Assembly (NCBI RefSeq): GCF_000165425.1
Contig: NW_001799366.1
Location: forward strand, 293,254 to 357,253
Reading direction: 5' to 3'
From: Paramecium tetraurelia
Taxonomy: Eukaryota > Ciliophora > Oligohymenophorea > Peniculida > Parameciidae
Length of the DNA: 64,000 nucleotides
Both the position numbers and the translations under genes were made by a program. This document shows, one piece after another, positions 40,838 to 48,039 of the stretch; position 1 is the first letter of the stretch; each line of letters opens with the position of its first letter. The notes under the pieces were generated by a model. The model ran no database searches. It saw only the letters and a list, made by a program, of their open reading frames with translations, and had not been told where the DNA came from.

Positions 40838-41735
40838 ATGATAAATAATAAGCAAATGTCATAGATTGATCTTGCAGCTATAGAAAAAGTATTCGCTCTA
40901 CTCTTGCTAAGTTGTGTCACCTATATATGGTTTACATTGGTCTCGCTTCAGTTTACAATCATATTGGCTCTGACACTTTGTTCCCTTGCTGTTCTGTTGA
41001 AGATCAAGTGGACCAGAATTAAGAGAAAGGGATTCCTAAACAATGTCTCTCACAAACTTAGAAAGATCTTATTGGAGAGATCCTTATTTGATATTTTGTG
41101 CGATATATGGTATTTCGAAACAATTAAGAGACATGTAAGAGTATTTTTAAGTCCATTTCTAATTAAAAAAACCCCAGAAGAAATAATCGAATCCTTTGAA
41201 GATATCAATCCTTAATTGAAAGAGGCAATCCTTAGAAAAGGAACTATTAACTTATTCCCAGAACCAATTAAAAAGGAGTTAGTGCAAAATTACTTCTAAG
41301 AAGATGAACTACAGATTAATTAGGACAAACAATTGCATTAATAAATCATCCAACAGCCAGTCAAAGTGGAACATTGGGATAGATATGCCGATTATGAACA
41401 ATACACATAGAGAAATAGAAAAAACAACTCTTAAACCTTGTTGCATGTCATCTCATTGTTAATGCATAAACCTATCGTACATAAGGAGAATCATAAAGTG
41501 AATCTGAGAAAGTAACTTATGGATTTTTCAACTATTTTTTAGTTTGTCCAGCAAAACCCAATCCTTATTGGTTGGATCTGTCATATGCATCCTTGTCCAG
41601 ATGTACTTTTCCAAATCCTCAAGGCAAATCTATCAAAAGGCATTCACCATCTTGTCGTCTATGTCTTTGTTGGCAATGGCTTCCACTGCCCTTGGAGTGA
41701 TGGCTTTAAGTAATAAAAAATAAAAAACATTGTGA
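40838..41735 (+). CDS. Unknown membrane protein, four predicted spans
   Basis: 288 aa, one 31-nt intron (41512-41542). Two hydrophobic spans lie in residues 14-57 (KVFALLLLSCVTYIWFTL, then TIILALTLCSLAVLL). They are followed by a basic and then acidic/Gln-rich cytosolic middle, and two more spans at the C-terminus (LLVGSVICILVQMYF and MSLLAMASTALGVMAL), ending Lys-rich. The last two spans appear only after removing the intron; without it the frame runs on as AT-rich sequence to 41791. No known family recognised. 54 bp downstream of PP1. Confidence 0.66.
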
Positions 41736-41787
41736 TTTTTATCCAATATTATATATAACAAATAATATAAATTTAATATAATTATAC

Positions 41788-43530
41788 ATGAAAGAAAATC
41801 TTAAAACTGAGATGAGTGACACTACTCTAAGAAGGGATGCCACTTTTTCACTAAATTACATCTGTAGCTCCCAAATCTTTTTCGACAACAGAAGGCCTTC
41901 AACCAAGAAATCTCTTTATCTAAGAACCTCTCAAAATCAAGTCAGACTACCTCATTTTTAAACTCAGATCATCCAAAGGAACACTCAATTTATCAAGGCT
42001 GAGAAGAATAATACAATTATATCCGGGAAGACCTACATTACCAAAGCAATGGAGCATTAATATTTGAGGATTTCTTGCGAGAATTTAATAGCACCTTTTG
42101 GCTGTCAAGTATACTGCACTTGTGAATTTTAATTGATGATCTCGCAAGTTCATCCCTTCCCCACCAATTACAATTGCGAGCAAGTAATCAATAATAGAGG
42201 ATTTGTTGTTTCAGTGATCACAGGTGAATTTATTTATTTATCAATCATTACTCGGAAAGATTCAGAACTTTAATTCAACCTCCAAATTAATCAGCCACTT
42301 GAAGAATGTCAAAGAATCAAAACTCTCCAAGACACTCCATCAACTGACTTCTAATAAATGGTTAAATTCTCTCATTCCAAATCTTTTTAATGTATTATCA
42401 ATTCCAATAAGGAATAGGCAGGAATCAAAAAAAACAGATACTAAGATGAGATATCAAGATAAGACCGATTCCTCAAAGTGTTATCAACAAGGAACTTTTA
42501 AAGACAATCCAAAACACAAGCTAAAATATAGAAGCAATACCAAATCAAAGCCAAGAAACTAGCTAATCAAGAAAAAATCATAACCAAAATTATCAACGAC
42601 AAGAAAAGTCAAAAAGGAATATTTGAATAATAATGGGCCATCATTATCTATTTCATTAAAATGAGTTCCAGAATTTTTGATGCATTTTGGCACAAAAAGT
42701 AAATCTTGAAGAAGAATAGACTAGTTGCATTTAGAATTAAATCACTCTTCAGGTAAATGAAAAAGAAAATCATATGTCCAAAAGGAGAATTCCTAGAAAC
42801 ACGAGTTTTGGTTGATTGCTTTATCTCCATCAAGGCTAAAACTAAAATAATCAGAAGATCAATACGAACTAAATAAATTTAAGTATTATTACCTATTCTA
42901 CAGCAAAGAGCAATAATATACTGTATTAAAATGAAAATGTTAAAGTTAGGAAATAAACTCAATATTATCAAGAAACACATCTTACAATTTGAAGAGAACT
43001 ACACAAAATACAAAAATGATATGATTGTAAAATGGGACAATTTGAATGAGAAGATTAAGGACGAGGAAATAAAATGGAAGTAGGCTACTTTGAGAAAGAA
43101 GGGATTGGTTACTTGGTTTTAGGTGTTGAAAGATAAGGAATTTGCTTAATAGATGAGGAAGTGCTTTATTTTTGAATTGATGAGGGATAGAATTAGGTAG
43201 CATCTGCAAGATCAGCAATTAATCAAGAAGTATAAGATGGATCTTAAGTATTACAAATAGAAATTGAGGGTTTGTAGAGATTTTGTGGAAGCTAATACAT
43301 TTAGAGGTGAGATATCTAGATTAACTAATGACATATATGCGATGCATATGAAGAACTAATTATTTATGCATGTCGATGTCGAGAAGTATTTTCACTCGTT
43401 AGTGAGTAAATATATCATTCTGGTTGATGAGCCTGACAATTTGCCTGCTGAATTGTAAAGTTAATAGAAACAAAAGCAGAGACAATCTAGACTCACAATG
43501 AGGAGAATAACAAAAAAATCTAAATTCTGA
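41788..43530 (+). CDS. Unknown basic, helix-rich protein
   Basis: Single-exon frame of 580 aa to TGA 43528. The N-terminal half is Gln/Ser/Lys-rich with cysteine patches. The C-terminal half is helical and very basic with IQ-like stretches (AIIIYFIKMSSRIFDAFW, RNRLVAFRIKSLFRQMKKK-like), and a C-terminal block MHVDVEKYFHSLVSKYIIL. Repeated hydrophobic-Arg/Lys helices suggest calmodulin or microtubule-associated binding, as in several ciliary proteins, but no domain is clear. A second in-frame ATG lies at 41812. Confidence 0.7.
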
Positions 43531-44213: not shown

Positions 44214-46431
44214 TCAAATACCTGCTAGGTTTCCTTCCATAATCAATTTTCTAGCCAAATCGAACACTTTCTCTGGATCTACATTAACTTTGGCAACTCC
44301 TGTCTTCATGGCAGCAATAGCCACAGCTCTTGCCACATTAGCAGGAATCTCTGCTGTCAAGGCTCCAGGCAAAATCTTGGTTGTGCTAAGTTCGGAATCT
44401 TTGATACTGTTGGCAATAGCATAAGCAGCAGCAATCTTTTGTATTATATTCATAGTACCTTCATTTCTAGATTAATTTCTTTGGCTCTAGTGTCAATGGC
44501 ACCTCTGAAAATACCTGGGAAAGCCAAAGAATTATTGACTTAATTGTTGAAATCGGATCTTCCAGTAGCAACGATAAATGCACCAGCTTCAATGGCTTCG
44601 TCTGGCATTATTTCAGGCACTGGATTGGCTAAGGCTAGGATGAATGGATCCTTATTCATTGCTCTGACCATATCCTGAGTTAATGCACCCTATGAATGTT
44701 GAATATATAATATTTACAGCACTGGACACTCCAACAAAGAGATCTCTTCCTTTGACTGCATCTGCAAGAGTGCCTTAGATTTTACCCTTATTTGTGAACT
44801 TGGCTAAATCATTTTTAAAATTGTTCATATTTTAAGGTCTACCTTCATAAATGATTCCTGAAGTATCACACATCACAATATCTTCAATTCCATGTCCATA
44901 CAACAATTTACCGATTGCAACACCAGCAGCCCTTTAAATAAATACATTAATTATATACCCTGCTCCATTTATAACTAATTTTAGATCCTTCACATTCTTT
45001 TTGGTTAATTTTAGATAGTTGATGACTGCTGCCAAACTAACTACGGCTGTTCCATGTTGATCGTCATGCATTAATGGAATGTGTAAACTCTGAACTGCCT
45101 CTTCTTCTATGGGGAAACAATCAGGGGCTCTCAAGTCTTCTAGATTAATTGCTGAAAATATAGGAGCAATGCTGAGATAGATTTGATAGGACATACCATT
45201 TAATGATTCTGACCAATTTATGAGGATCCTTCTCTTTAAGACAGATTGGCATAAGATCTATGCCTCCCAAAGCATTGAATAAGACGGACTTGCCTTCCAT
45301 AACTGGTAGTCCTGCAGAAGGTCCGATGTTGCCCAAACCAAGAATGGCTGTACCGTTGGTTATGATGGCAGCGTAGTTCTTTTTGAAGGTGATTTCTCTT
45401 AATTTGGATGGATCATCAATGAGGATTTGTCTGAGTTATGCCAACTCATCTTTTTGATAGGAGGTTTCATAAATTCTGAACAAATCTTCAAGTGATCTTG
45501 GATTAAACTTGAGTTCAATAGTGATCATTCCATGGTATCTTTTGTGCAATTCCAAGGCATTCTAATTGAAATCATTATTTTGCAACAGATGATCATTAGA
45601 CCATTTGTTGTAATAAGCAACTTCTCCATAAATATAAAGATCATTTAATTTATTAATGAAAATTTCTGGGTTTACGTTTGCAACAGTGTGATGATACAAT
45701 TTATGATTGTAGATTTCCTGTAATCCCAGAGCATAAGCTTTGTTTAAAGTTGTTGTCAAAAGAGATGGTAGATTAGTGAAATCAACTGAAGTGATTGCTT
45801 TTTTGATTAACTCACATTGAGAGGGTTTAAGAGTGGATCTTGCATCAAGAGTAGCCTTGACTAAAGCAGCATCATAGAGCTACTCCCTCAGATTGTGGGA
45901 GTTGGAAATAATCACAGTGCATTCGAGTTTAGCATTTTCCACAGCTGTGAGGATCTGTGAGGCTAACGTATCTTCGATGTCAATCAAAACTATAGTCTAG
46001 GAATAATCTAAAAACAGATACTTTGTATGTGGGTGACAGATTGTCCATCACCAGCACATAATCGGATACATCTGTCATGATAGTTCTGTCCAAGATAATA
46101 GGATAGGCATCTACGTCATAGAATGCTTTGTACAAGGCACTTATGGCTTCTAAATTTGGGATCATTTTGGATGACCGGGGGAGATTGAATTCTATAGAGT
46201 ATTGCGGAGATGCATACTTGATCCGTCAGCAAGGAGTGCAATCGAATTACCAGCTATCGTCTATTCGTACAGTTAATCTGGGTCTTTTTGGATCACCTTG
46301 CAAATATGGCCAACTCCAGGAGTATAAACAAGGGACAGGGTGTAATTGTCAGTAACCCTCACTTTTGGCTTTATTTTGATCAGTCCATTGGTTCTCAGGA
46401 ACAGGTTTTTTAAACTTTGATGGGGCTGCAT
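44214..46431 (-). CDS. Malic enzyme with duplicated N-terminal domain
   Basis: 687 aa, six introns (44436-44458 AAG, 44690-44717, 44932-44958 AAG, 45172-45196 CAG, 45997-46021, 46192-46217). The N-terminus is basic, like an organelle presequence. Copy 1 (about residues 38-170) has the catalytic-tyrosine motif [19 protein letters not shown] and [19 protein letters not shown]. Copy 2 (about 260-430) starts [19 protein letters not shown]; its YTPGV site is IYETSYQ, yet it keeps [24 protein letters not shown], the metal-ligand region [12 protein letters not shown] and HDDQHGTA. The NAD(P)-binding domain follows: [49 protein letters not shown] and [12 protein letters not shown]. Malic enzyme decarboxylates malate to pyruvate with NAD(P)H formation, here probably in mitochondria. 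Divergent from the WD40 gene by 66 bp. Confidence 0.88.
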
Positions 46432-46497
46432 ATAAATTTTATTAATATGATATTTCCAATTTTTCCCTTTATCATTTTATATATATATACAATATAA

Positions 46498-48039
46498 ATG
46501 TTGTAATCATTTGCTAGCAATGTCAGCTGTCCGAATCACAACCAACCAATCAGTTATATTGACACCAAGAAGGACACACCTATCAATAACAGGGCCAAGT
46601 GTTTGAATTGCACACCTTTGAATGATGCTGTTCCATTGAAAACTGCTCTGGAGAAATTCAAGAAATTGAAAGAAGACGAAAAATAATAGATTAGAAATTA
46701 TAGAAAAAACAAGGTCTACGATTTCTTGGAATTCAAGAAGGTCATTCATCAACTTTCTGAATCCATTTCGCAATCTCTCAATGAAATTAGTAAATAAATC
46801 AATGAAAGAATCGAAAAGATTGTCGGAGTCATTCAATAAGCCTAATCAGTGCAATGGCAATTCGATATTAACGAGTATTTGACCATAAGTGGATTGCAAA
46901 ACGTAGGATTACAATTAAGTTAGTAAGGAAATGAGTTTTCACTAATTAAAGCTGGTTACTCTGTGGTTCAAATGAAGAAGGAACAACAATTGTAAACCAC
47001 TCTTTCCAATTATCAAAACAACATCAAGTCTATCCAAAGCAATATGGAAATACTCAAAGAATCACTAACCACCAATCTTATTATTAATGAAGAAATCGTA
47101 GGGAAGGCTGTCTAGAAGGAAAAATGTTTAGCCACAGCCTTCAACAAAGACAATTCCATAATGATAAGCACATCAGAAGAACTCATTAAGGTCTGGACTT
47201 TCGACAATGGCAAATTGGAATTGTTTCAAACATTGAAAGGACATGACAAAGAAGTCACCTGTCTCTATTTCAGTCGTAAGAATAATTGGTTCATCTCTGG
47301 AAGTCGAGACAAGACTCTAAGAATATGGAAGGAGTTTAGTAATAGTGAATGGGGCTGTATATAGATTTTAGAAGGCAATAGTTTTTGCATTAATTGTGTT
47401 ATTATAAACTAATATGAAGATCAAATCCTATCCAGTAGAGATGATAACAAAATCAAGGTATGGATGCAAGAATCCTTACTGACTTCATAATAACCACAAT
47501 GGAAATGCTATTAAACTCTACAGGATCATAAGAAAGATGTTTATTCATTGAGTTTAAACTCAGCTGGCACCATGTTGGTTTCTGGCTCTTATGATAAAAC
47601 CATAATCATCTATGAGTTCGATGATTAGTAATAATGGAGATTAAAGCAAGTGATATAAAATGATTATGAAAATTGGGTGCATTCGGTTTGTGTCATCAAT
47701 GATAAGTTGATTGCCACCAAGTTATATAATGGAGTGGTTATTCTTTATCAATATATGGAGTCGGTTGAATCATTCGAATAGATTCAAGAACTGGAACTCA
47801 GTAAGTCGAAGATGAGTTACTTCGATTTCTTCCACATGTTCTACAATCAGTAATTGTAATCCATCTTCTGTCGTCATCTAGATTGCATTTACATTTTATT
47901 CCAATAAACTACAGGGAGATATGGAGTCCAATAGAAAATCGCAGACAATTATAGAGGTGGCAGCTTGACTGACAATGGAGAATACATTGCCTTGTGGAAT
48001 AATAATACTAAATAATTAGAAATAAGATAACAGGAGTGA
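46498..48039 (+). CDS. WD40-repeat protein with N-terminal zinc-like motif and coiled coil
   Basis: Single-exon 513-aa protein. Residues 10-40 have spaced Cys/His (CPNHNQ...RAKCLNC) like a B-box or related zinc-binding element. Residues about 45-205 are coiled coil. From about residue 210 there are WD40 repeats: TSEELIKVWTFDNGKL, GHDKEVTCLYF...SGSRDKTLRIW, SSRDDNKIKVWMQ, DHKKDVYSLSLNSAGTMLVS and GSYDKTIIIYEF. A later stretch is more diverged. The architecture matches a large Paramecium family; a scaffold role is inferred. Confidence 0.86.

Follow-up and report, generated by a model that had tools for sequence, protein, structure and literature searches.

In prokaryotic-type malic enzymes, as described in excerpts of two reports, the active site is shared between subunits and the tyrosine motif is supplied by the other subunit (PMC7902834, PMC11944484). 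In MaeB, Tyr52 is contributed by the other monomer, and Lys107, Glu149 and Asp174 are the remaining catalytic residues named (excerpt of PMC7902834). The malic enzyme of Entamoeba is an entangled dimer with an entangled region of 48 residues, in which a distance of 2.8 Å separates Tyr65, in the YTPGV motif of one chain, from Lys120 in the other; in contrast, the same excerpt describes metazoan malic enzymes as having their own active site in each monomer (PMC11944484). A predicted archaeal malic enzyme has a threonine from the other subunit at the substrate (excerpt of PMC11134350). Active sites shared in this way between identical subunits are common among enzymes, but what follows once the symmetry breaks is difficult to observe in nature.

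The window analysed here, a stretch of 64,000 nucleotides of Paramecium tetraurelia DNA, contains a malic enzyme gene with the following features:

44214..46431, minus strand: whole malic enzyme gene, 7 exons, 687 aa, ciliate code (table 6)
46431-46218, 46191-46022, 45996-45197, 45171-44959, 44931-44718, 44689-44459 and 44435-44214, minus strand: exons
45889..46431, minus strand: copy 1 of the malic N-terminal domain, residues 1-164, with introns 46217-46192 and 46021-45997 inside
46312..46326, minus strand: copy 1 motif YTPGV (residues 36-40), with Tyr36 at the aligned position of Tyr52 in Bdellovibrio MaeB
46142..46159, minus strand: PNLEAI (residues 83-88), degenerate Lys motif of copy 1, with Ile88 in place of the catalytic Lys
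45562..45888, minus strand: linker, residues 165-273
45054..45561, minus strand: copy 2 of the malic N-terminal domain, residues 274-434, with intron 45196-45172 inside
45457..45471, minus strand: degenerate Tyr motif YETSY of copy 2, residues 304-308; Tyr304 aligns with the catalytic Tyr
45289..45306, minus strand: intact Lys motif PVMEGK of copy 2; Lys364 corresponds to MaeB Lys107
45135..45146, minus strand: first metal motif NLED of copy 2; Glu406 (MaeB Glu149) and Asp407
45045..45068, minus strand: second metal motif HDDQHGTA of copy 2; Asp431 corresponds to MaeB Asp174
44217..45053, minus strand: NAD(P)-binding domain and C-terminus, residues 435-687, with Malic_M (PF03949) at 435-656

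The reading frame begins with the ATG at 46431 and ends with a TGA at 44214. All six introns are GT-AG and 23-28 nt long, and eight in-frame TAA or TAG codons are translated as Gln.

The original prediction was that the protein carries the malic N-terminal domain twice, and this is borne out. A profile built from 18 prokaryotic malic enzymes matches residues 13-143 (i-Evalue 4.6e-22) and again residues 270-669 (8e-141); these 18 are the non-redundant remainder of 80 fetched sequences (62 were dropped as more than 75% identical to one that was kept), and the set favours copy 2 motifs because the patterns used to fetch it were drawn from copy 2. Searched by themselves, residues 1-273 hit solved malic enzymes of the prokaryotic type, with 1ww8 as the best (E 2.1e-16); the first segment is a malic enzyme homologue. 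In Pfam, PF00390 followed by PF03949 both exceed their cut-offs in the protein; copy 1 on its own scores 21.8 bits against PF00390, below the cut-off of 23.1. Copy 2 aligns with prokaryotic malic enzymes end to end. Against 3nv9, which we take to be the Entamoeba malic enzyme, the protein gives E 4.9e-72, with the best stretch at residues 272-681.

No homologue of the linker was found with hhalign, NCBIfam or shuffle-tested local alignments. It is predicted to be mostly helical in a low-confidence model; the predicted model of exon 3 (11 prokaryotic rows) was poor, with a mean pLDDT of 47.7. The idea, formed by eye, that the linker is a remnant of the C-terminal helices of a lost NAD part of copy 1 was not supported: hhalign returned E of about 0.3 when residues 165-273 and 145-273 were compared with the malic enzyme profile, and in local alignments of the linker with each paralogue's own C-terminus 96, 24 and 295 of 1000 shuffles scored at least as high.

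It can be seen that each of the closest described enzymes shares part of this arrangement. The enzyme of Entamoeba histolytica is likewise from a protist and of prokaryotic type, with YTPGV facing VMEGK across a shared site, but the excerpt describes it as a symmetric entangled homodimer with a single N-domain per chain (PMC11944484). The best solved match of the whole protein, reached via copy 2, is the malic enzyme of Candidatus Phytoplasma (5cee, E 2.8e-113), which copy 1 matches as well (E 4.6e-14); unlike the Paramecium protein, its 413-residue chain has one copy and lacks the linker. In the hybrid MaeB of Bdellovibrio (6zn4) the partner monomer gives the Tyr and the named catalytic residues map one to one, but that enzyme has a phosphotransacetylase domain and two sites per dimer (excerpt of PMC7902834). 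A Pfam search at E up to 1 found no match to the C-terminal phosphotransacetylase domain of hybrid MaeB in the Paramecium protein. The 764-position NCBIfam model of NADP-dependent malic enzyme, NF009501, is matched at its positions 47-409 only, with 353.8 bits against a cut-off of 1178.

Large-subunit (animal-type) malic enzymes, such as human ME2, catalyse the same reaction. They resemble the Paramecium protein in the NAD-domain part, where human entries match with E of about 1e-14 to 1e-15; the N-terminal half has no match to this family, the chains listed each matching one stretch within residues 402-678. They are further distinguished by being typically tetramers of 60-kDa subunits (excerpt of PMC7902834), with Tyr and Lys on one chain (excerpts of PMC7902834 and PMC11944484). 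When each half was aligned to other malic enzymes, as had been proposed, both matched the prokaryotic type, and human entries matched the NAD-domain part. Members of the prokaryotic-type family have one N-domain per chain, and here two are found in 687 aa. Judged by its sequence, the protein is a variant of the prokaryotic-type (small-subunit) enzyme that departs from this feature.

The two copies retain different parts of the active site. Copy 1 was expected to keep YTPGV and to be degenerate at GLGNIG and VMEGK, and it does so: YTPGV stands at residues 36-40, GLGNIG is lost and so is the Lys of VMEGK. The Lys position is occupied by Ile88 (Thr in the C40 paralogue described below) and the Glu position by Ile133 (Val in the C81 paralogue), with the Asp at 134 kept. 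Copy 1 is without the catalytic Lys, the proton-donor Glu and the second metal motif, and lacks the entire NAD domain. Copy 2 was expected to have lost YTPGV and to keep GLGNIG, PVMEGK, the metal-binding region and the NAD domain. The retained elements are all there, including the catalytic Lys, Glu and Asp motifs (Lys364, Glu406 and Asp431), and the Pro, Gly and Val of the Tyr motif are gone, with five residues inserted; the tyrosine itself, however, remains as Tyr304. Across the three paralogues this segment reads YETSY, YESSY or YELSY, so Tyr304 is invariant in 3/3, and the residue next to it is Glu where the reference enzymes have Thr or Ser.

Mapping onto MaeB (6zn4), with a constant offset of 11, equates Tyr36 with Tyr52, Lys364 with Lys107, Glu406 with Glu149 and Asp431 with Asp174. 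In four of the five HMMER alignments shown, copy 1 spans the N-terminal stretch of the solved enzyme and copy 2 the remainder; in the fifth and best-scoring (5cee), copy 2 is aligned throughout. Arg497 and Lys505 align with Arg242 and Lys250, the NADP+ residues of MaeB, and since these are kept the predicted enzyme is probably NADP-dependent.

The 61 N-domain positions that are invariant in the 18 prokaryotic enzymes, a set leaning towards copy 2 as noted above, are kept at 16 places in copy 1 and 47 in copy 2. The four invariant positions of YxPGV show the opposite distribution (4/4 kept in copy 1 against 1/4 in copy 2) to the 53 invariant positions from 59 onward (10/53 against 43/53). Counting only positions kept in a single copy, the split between copy 1 and copy 2 is 3:0 for YxPGV and 3:36 for those from 59 onward (Fisher p 0.0017), or 3:1 against 3:36 when the whole stretch 1-58 is taken (Fisher p 0.006).

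Two paralogues allow the variability of the Tyr segments to be compared:

C40:8256-10450: paralogue 1, malic enzyme gene, 82% identity to the 687-aa protein
C81:35271-37462: paralogue 2, malic enzyme gene, 76% identity to the 687-aa protein

Both have the layout of the gene at 44214..46431 and all six of its intron positions; the C81 protein was taken from its first Met, with two preceding residues trimmed. Over the whole coding sequence of the three paralogues, pN is low (0.11-0.17) and pS near saturation (0.73-0.79). In the three pairs, pN is 0, 0.058 and 0.058 for residues 26-48, which include YTPGV, 0.140, 0.317 and 0.295 for residues 293-325 around Tyr304, and 0.198, 0.311 and 0.284 for the linker. 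With the caveat that there are only three paralogues and that both segments were picked with the motif known, 3/23 columns are variable in 26-48 against 54/116 in the remainder of copy 1 (Fisher p 0.0025), 19/33 in 293-325 against 18/109 in the remainder of the copy 2 N-domain (p 8.7e-6), and the two segments differ from each other (p 0.0009). Among windows of equal width elsewhere in copy 1, overlapping ones included, 6/142 are as conserved as 26-48; counted likewise, 17/382 windows of copy 2 are as variable as 293-325.

As a control we used 1426 trios of ordinary malic enzymes of 70-87% identity. They are drawn from 70 loci, many belonging to a single genus; they share many of their sequences and are not independent of each other. 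Their ratio for the same two regions has a median of 1.54 (5-95% 0.97-2.43, range 0.44-3.13). At 0.28, the ratio for 26-48 of copy 1 falls below all 1426 trios. For the strict control match in copy 2, residues 294-321, the counts are 16/28 against 20/113 and the ratio of 3.23 exceeds that of every trio; leaving out the inserted columns (12/23 against 19/112) lowers it to 3.08, which 12/1426 trios reach. Redrawing the stretches to the published limits of the entangled region gives 13/48 against 47/101 for copy 1 (ratio 0.58, 0/1426 as low) and 25/53 against 14/98 for copy 2 (ratio 3.30, 52/1426 as high; the maximum among 816 trios of the 18 non-redundant enzymes is 2.74). The constraint on the Tyr segment of copy 1 thus holds in both tests, and the variability of copy 2 depends on the limits drawn. 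Taken as they stand, these comparisons indicate a YTPGV segment that appears unusually constrained within copy 1 and a counterpart that appears unusually variable within copy 2.

This pattern of retention, with the Tyr segment kept in copy 1 and changed in copy 2, matches the expectation for an asymmetric dimer. Once one half loses its cofactor domain and its Lys, its Tyr segment would still be needed, and that of the other half would be free to change. We consider it likely that the protein is a covalently fused pseudo-dimer of the prokaryotic-type enzyme, with one active site whose tyrosine, Tyr36, comes from copy 1. In an ordinary homodimer the catalytic Tyr of each site comes from the swapped helix of the partner. 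Copy 1 would be the former partner, inserting its entangled segment (which alignment places at residues 16-63) into copy 2 and handing Tyr36 to the site built there by Lys364, Glu406/Asp407, Asp431 and the NAD(P) domain. The site of copy 1 itself would be dead, having no Lys, Glu, second metal motif or cofactor domain, and the Tyr segment of copy 2 may have drifted because that dead site no longer needs a Tyr delivered to it. The donor and acceptor halves could sit on one chain or on two; either fits the sequence. The product would be a malate-decarboxylating dehydrogenase whose geometry, activity and cofactor we infer.

That the fused chain also carries the entanglement of the dimer internally, as a deep thread or knot, with the donor half kept solely to supply the Tyr, is a more speculative and rather doubtful extension. 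Internal threading of one chain, which would follow if the entanglement were retained, would be the greatest surprise, and the protein offers a way to test if an entangled dimer is able to fold when made as one chain. The donor of the Tyr and everything else seem to be separated within one chain, with matching segments that evolve in opposite directions, and the fused enzyme would provide a clean test of how composite sites turn asymmetric.

The original prediction of complementary decay, leaving one site that needs both copies, gains indirect support from the partner-subunit Tyr known in excerpts of PMC7902834 and PMC11944484, from losses that fall on opposite sides and from the opposite shifts in Tyr-segment variability; set against it is the retention of Tyr304 in 3/3 paralogues. 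Because of this invariance, Tyr304 could still act. Copy 2 might then form a self-sufficient homodimer in which Tyr304, at the aligned position, is catalytic in an altered context, copy 1 being a regulatory or scaffolding pseudo-domain. We regard this as unlikely: Pro, Gly and Val of the motif are lost, five residues are inserted, the Thr or Ser that adjoins the Tyr in the references is replaced by Glu, and the stretch is more variable than the remaining N-domain of copy 2, while in copy 1 the YTPGV stretch, non-catalytic on this reading, is among the most conserved parts. A tyrosine of copy 2 that could fill the catalytic role, which the original prediction had named as evidence against itself, is in place in 3/3 paralogues, in a setting that has changed around it.

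It is considerably less probable that the protein is catalytically dead or has another function. The degeneration of copy 1 would agree with this, but in each of the three paralogues copy 2 has intact Lys, Glu, Asp and cofactor motifs, pN is far below pS over the whole coding sequence, and the genome search described below found no further malic enzyme. Least credible of all is a gene-model or assembly artefact in which two adjacent genes are read as one, since the layout and all six intron positions recur at three loci and the single 800-nt exon 45996-45197 connects the end of copy 1 with copy 2 across the linker, without a break.

The genome searched comprises 69.07 Mb in 231 contigs. PF00390 found three places in it, which are these three malic enzyme genes, and the protein itself as query found only the same loci. 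PF03949 matched two of the three and missed the third, so that an exon-by-exon search can miss a gene; within this reach, PF00390, PF03949 and the protein query found no malic enzyme of another layout. Because no other malic enzyme gene was found, these searches suggest that the malic enzyme activity of the ciliate rests on the fused form. None of the literature matches listed (titles and starts of abstracts, with preprints and most subscription papers outside) concerned a malic enzyme with two N-domains, and the excerpts of PMC12704298, PMC11134350, PMC4196954, PMC1413528 and PMC6993867 do not describe such a layout.

An internal duplication, assumed in the original prediction, is not demonstrated. 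Over 125 columns the two copies share 22-26% identity, less than the mean identity of either to the 18 prokaryotic enzymes fetched with copy 2 patterns (30-31% for copy 1, 40-42% for copy 2), and a tree of N-domains, whose bootstrap had not converged, does not join the two copies. For these reasons a fusion of two different genes appears equally possible as the source. A bacterial source has a precedent in rumen ciliates, where malic enzyme is among the transfer candidates listed in the excerpt of PMC1413528. Scans for relatives of copy 1 used two short peptide patterns each in prokaryotic and viral collections and say little about ciliates: alignment to copy 1 confirmed 0 of 45 pattern matches in prokaryotic genome contigs and 0 of 59 in viral contigs, and among 108 matching plasmid records none had one place covering 80% of copy 1. 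The prokaryotic enzymes closest to copy 2, at 46-52% identity, included some from Woesearchaeota, another uncultured archaeon, a Paceibacterota genome and a Portnoybacteria genome, in a pattern-limited scan too narrow to name a donor.

When the sequence flanking the gene was compared by blastn with 20 kb around the C40 paralogue and 30 kb around the C81 paralogue, three of four matches, two at C40 and one at C81, were collinear with the malic enzyme genes; the fourth, again in C81, broke the collinearity. This thin evidence fits duplicated chromosome segments, as a whole-genome duplication would give.

On the other side of the malic enzyme start lies a divergent neighbour, a WD40-repeat gene (PF00400, 5e-31) at 46489-48036 on the plus strand, whose start would be about 67 bases from that of the malic enzyme if the ATG at about 46498 is the true one. 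The plus strand also has a frame of 609 residues at 41701-43530, open from stop to stop under table 6. It ends 684 bases past the malic enzyme 3' end, and parts of it match sequence adjoining the C40 paralogue (blastn).
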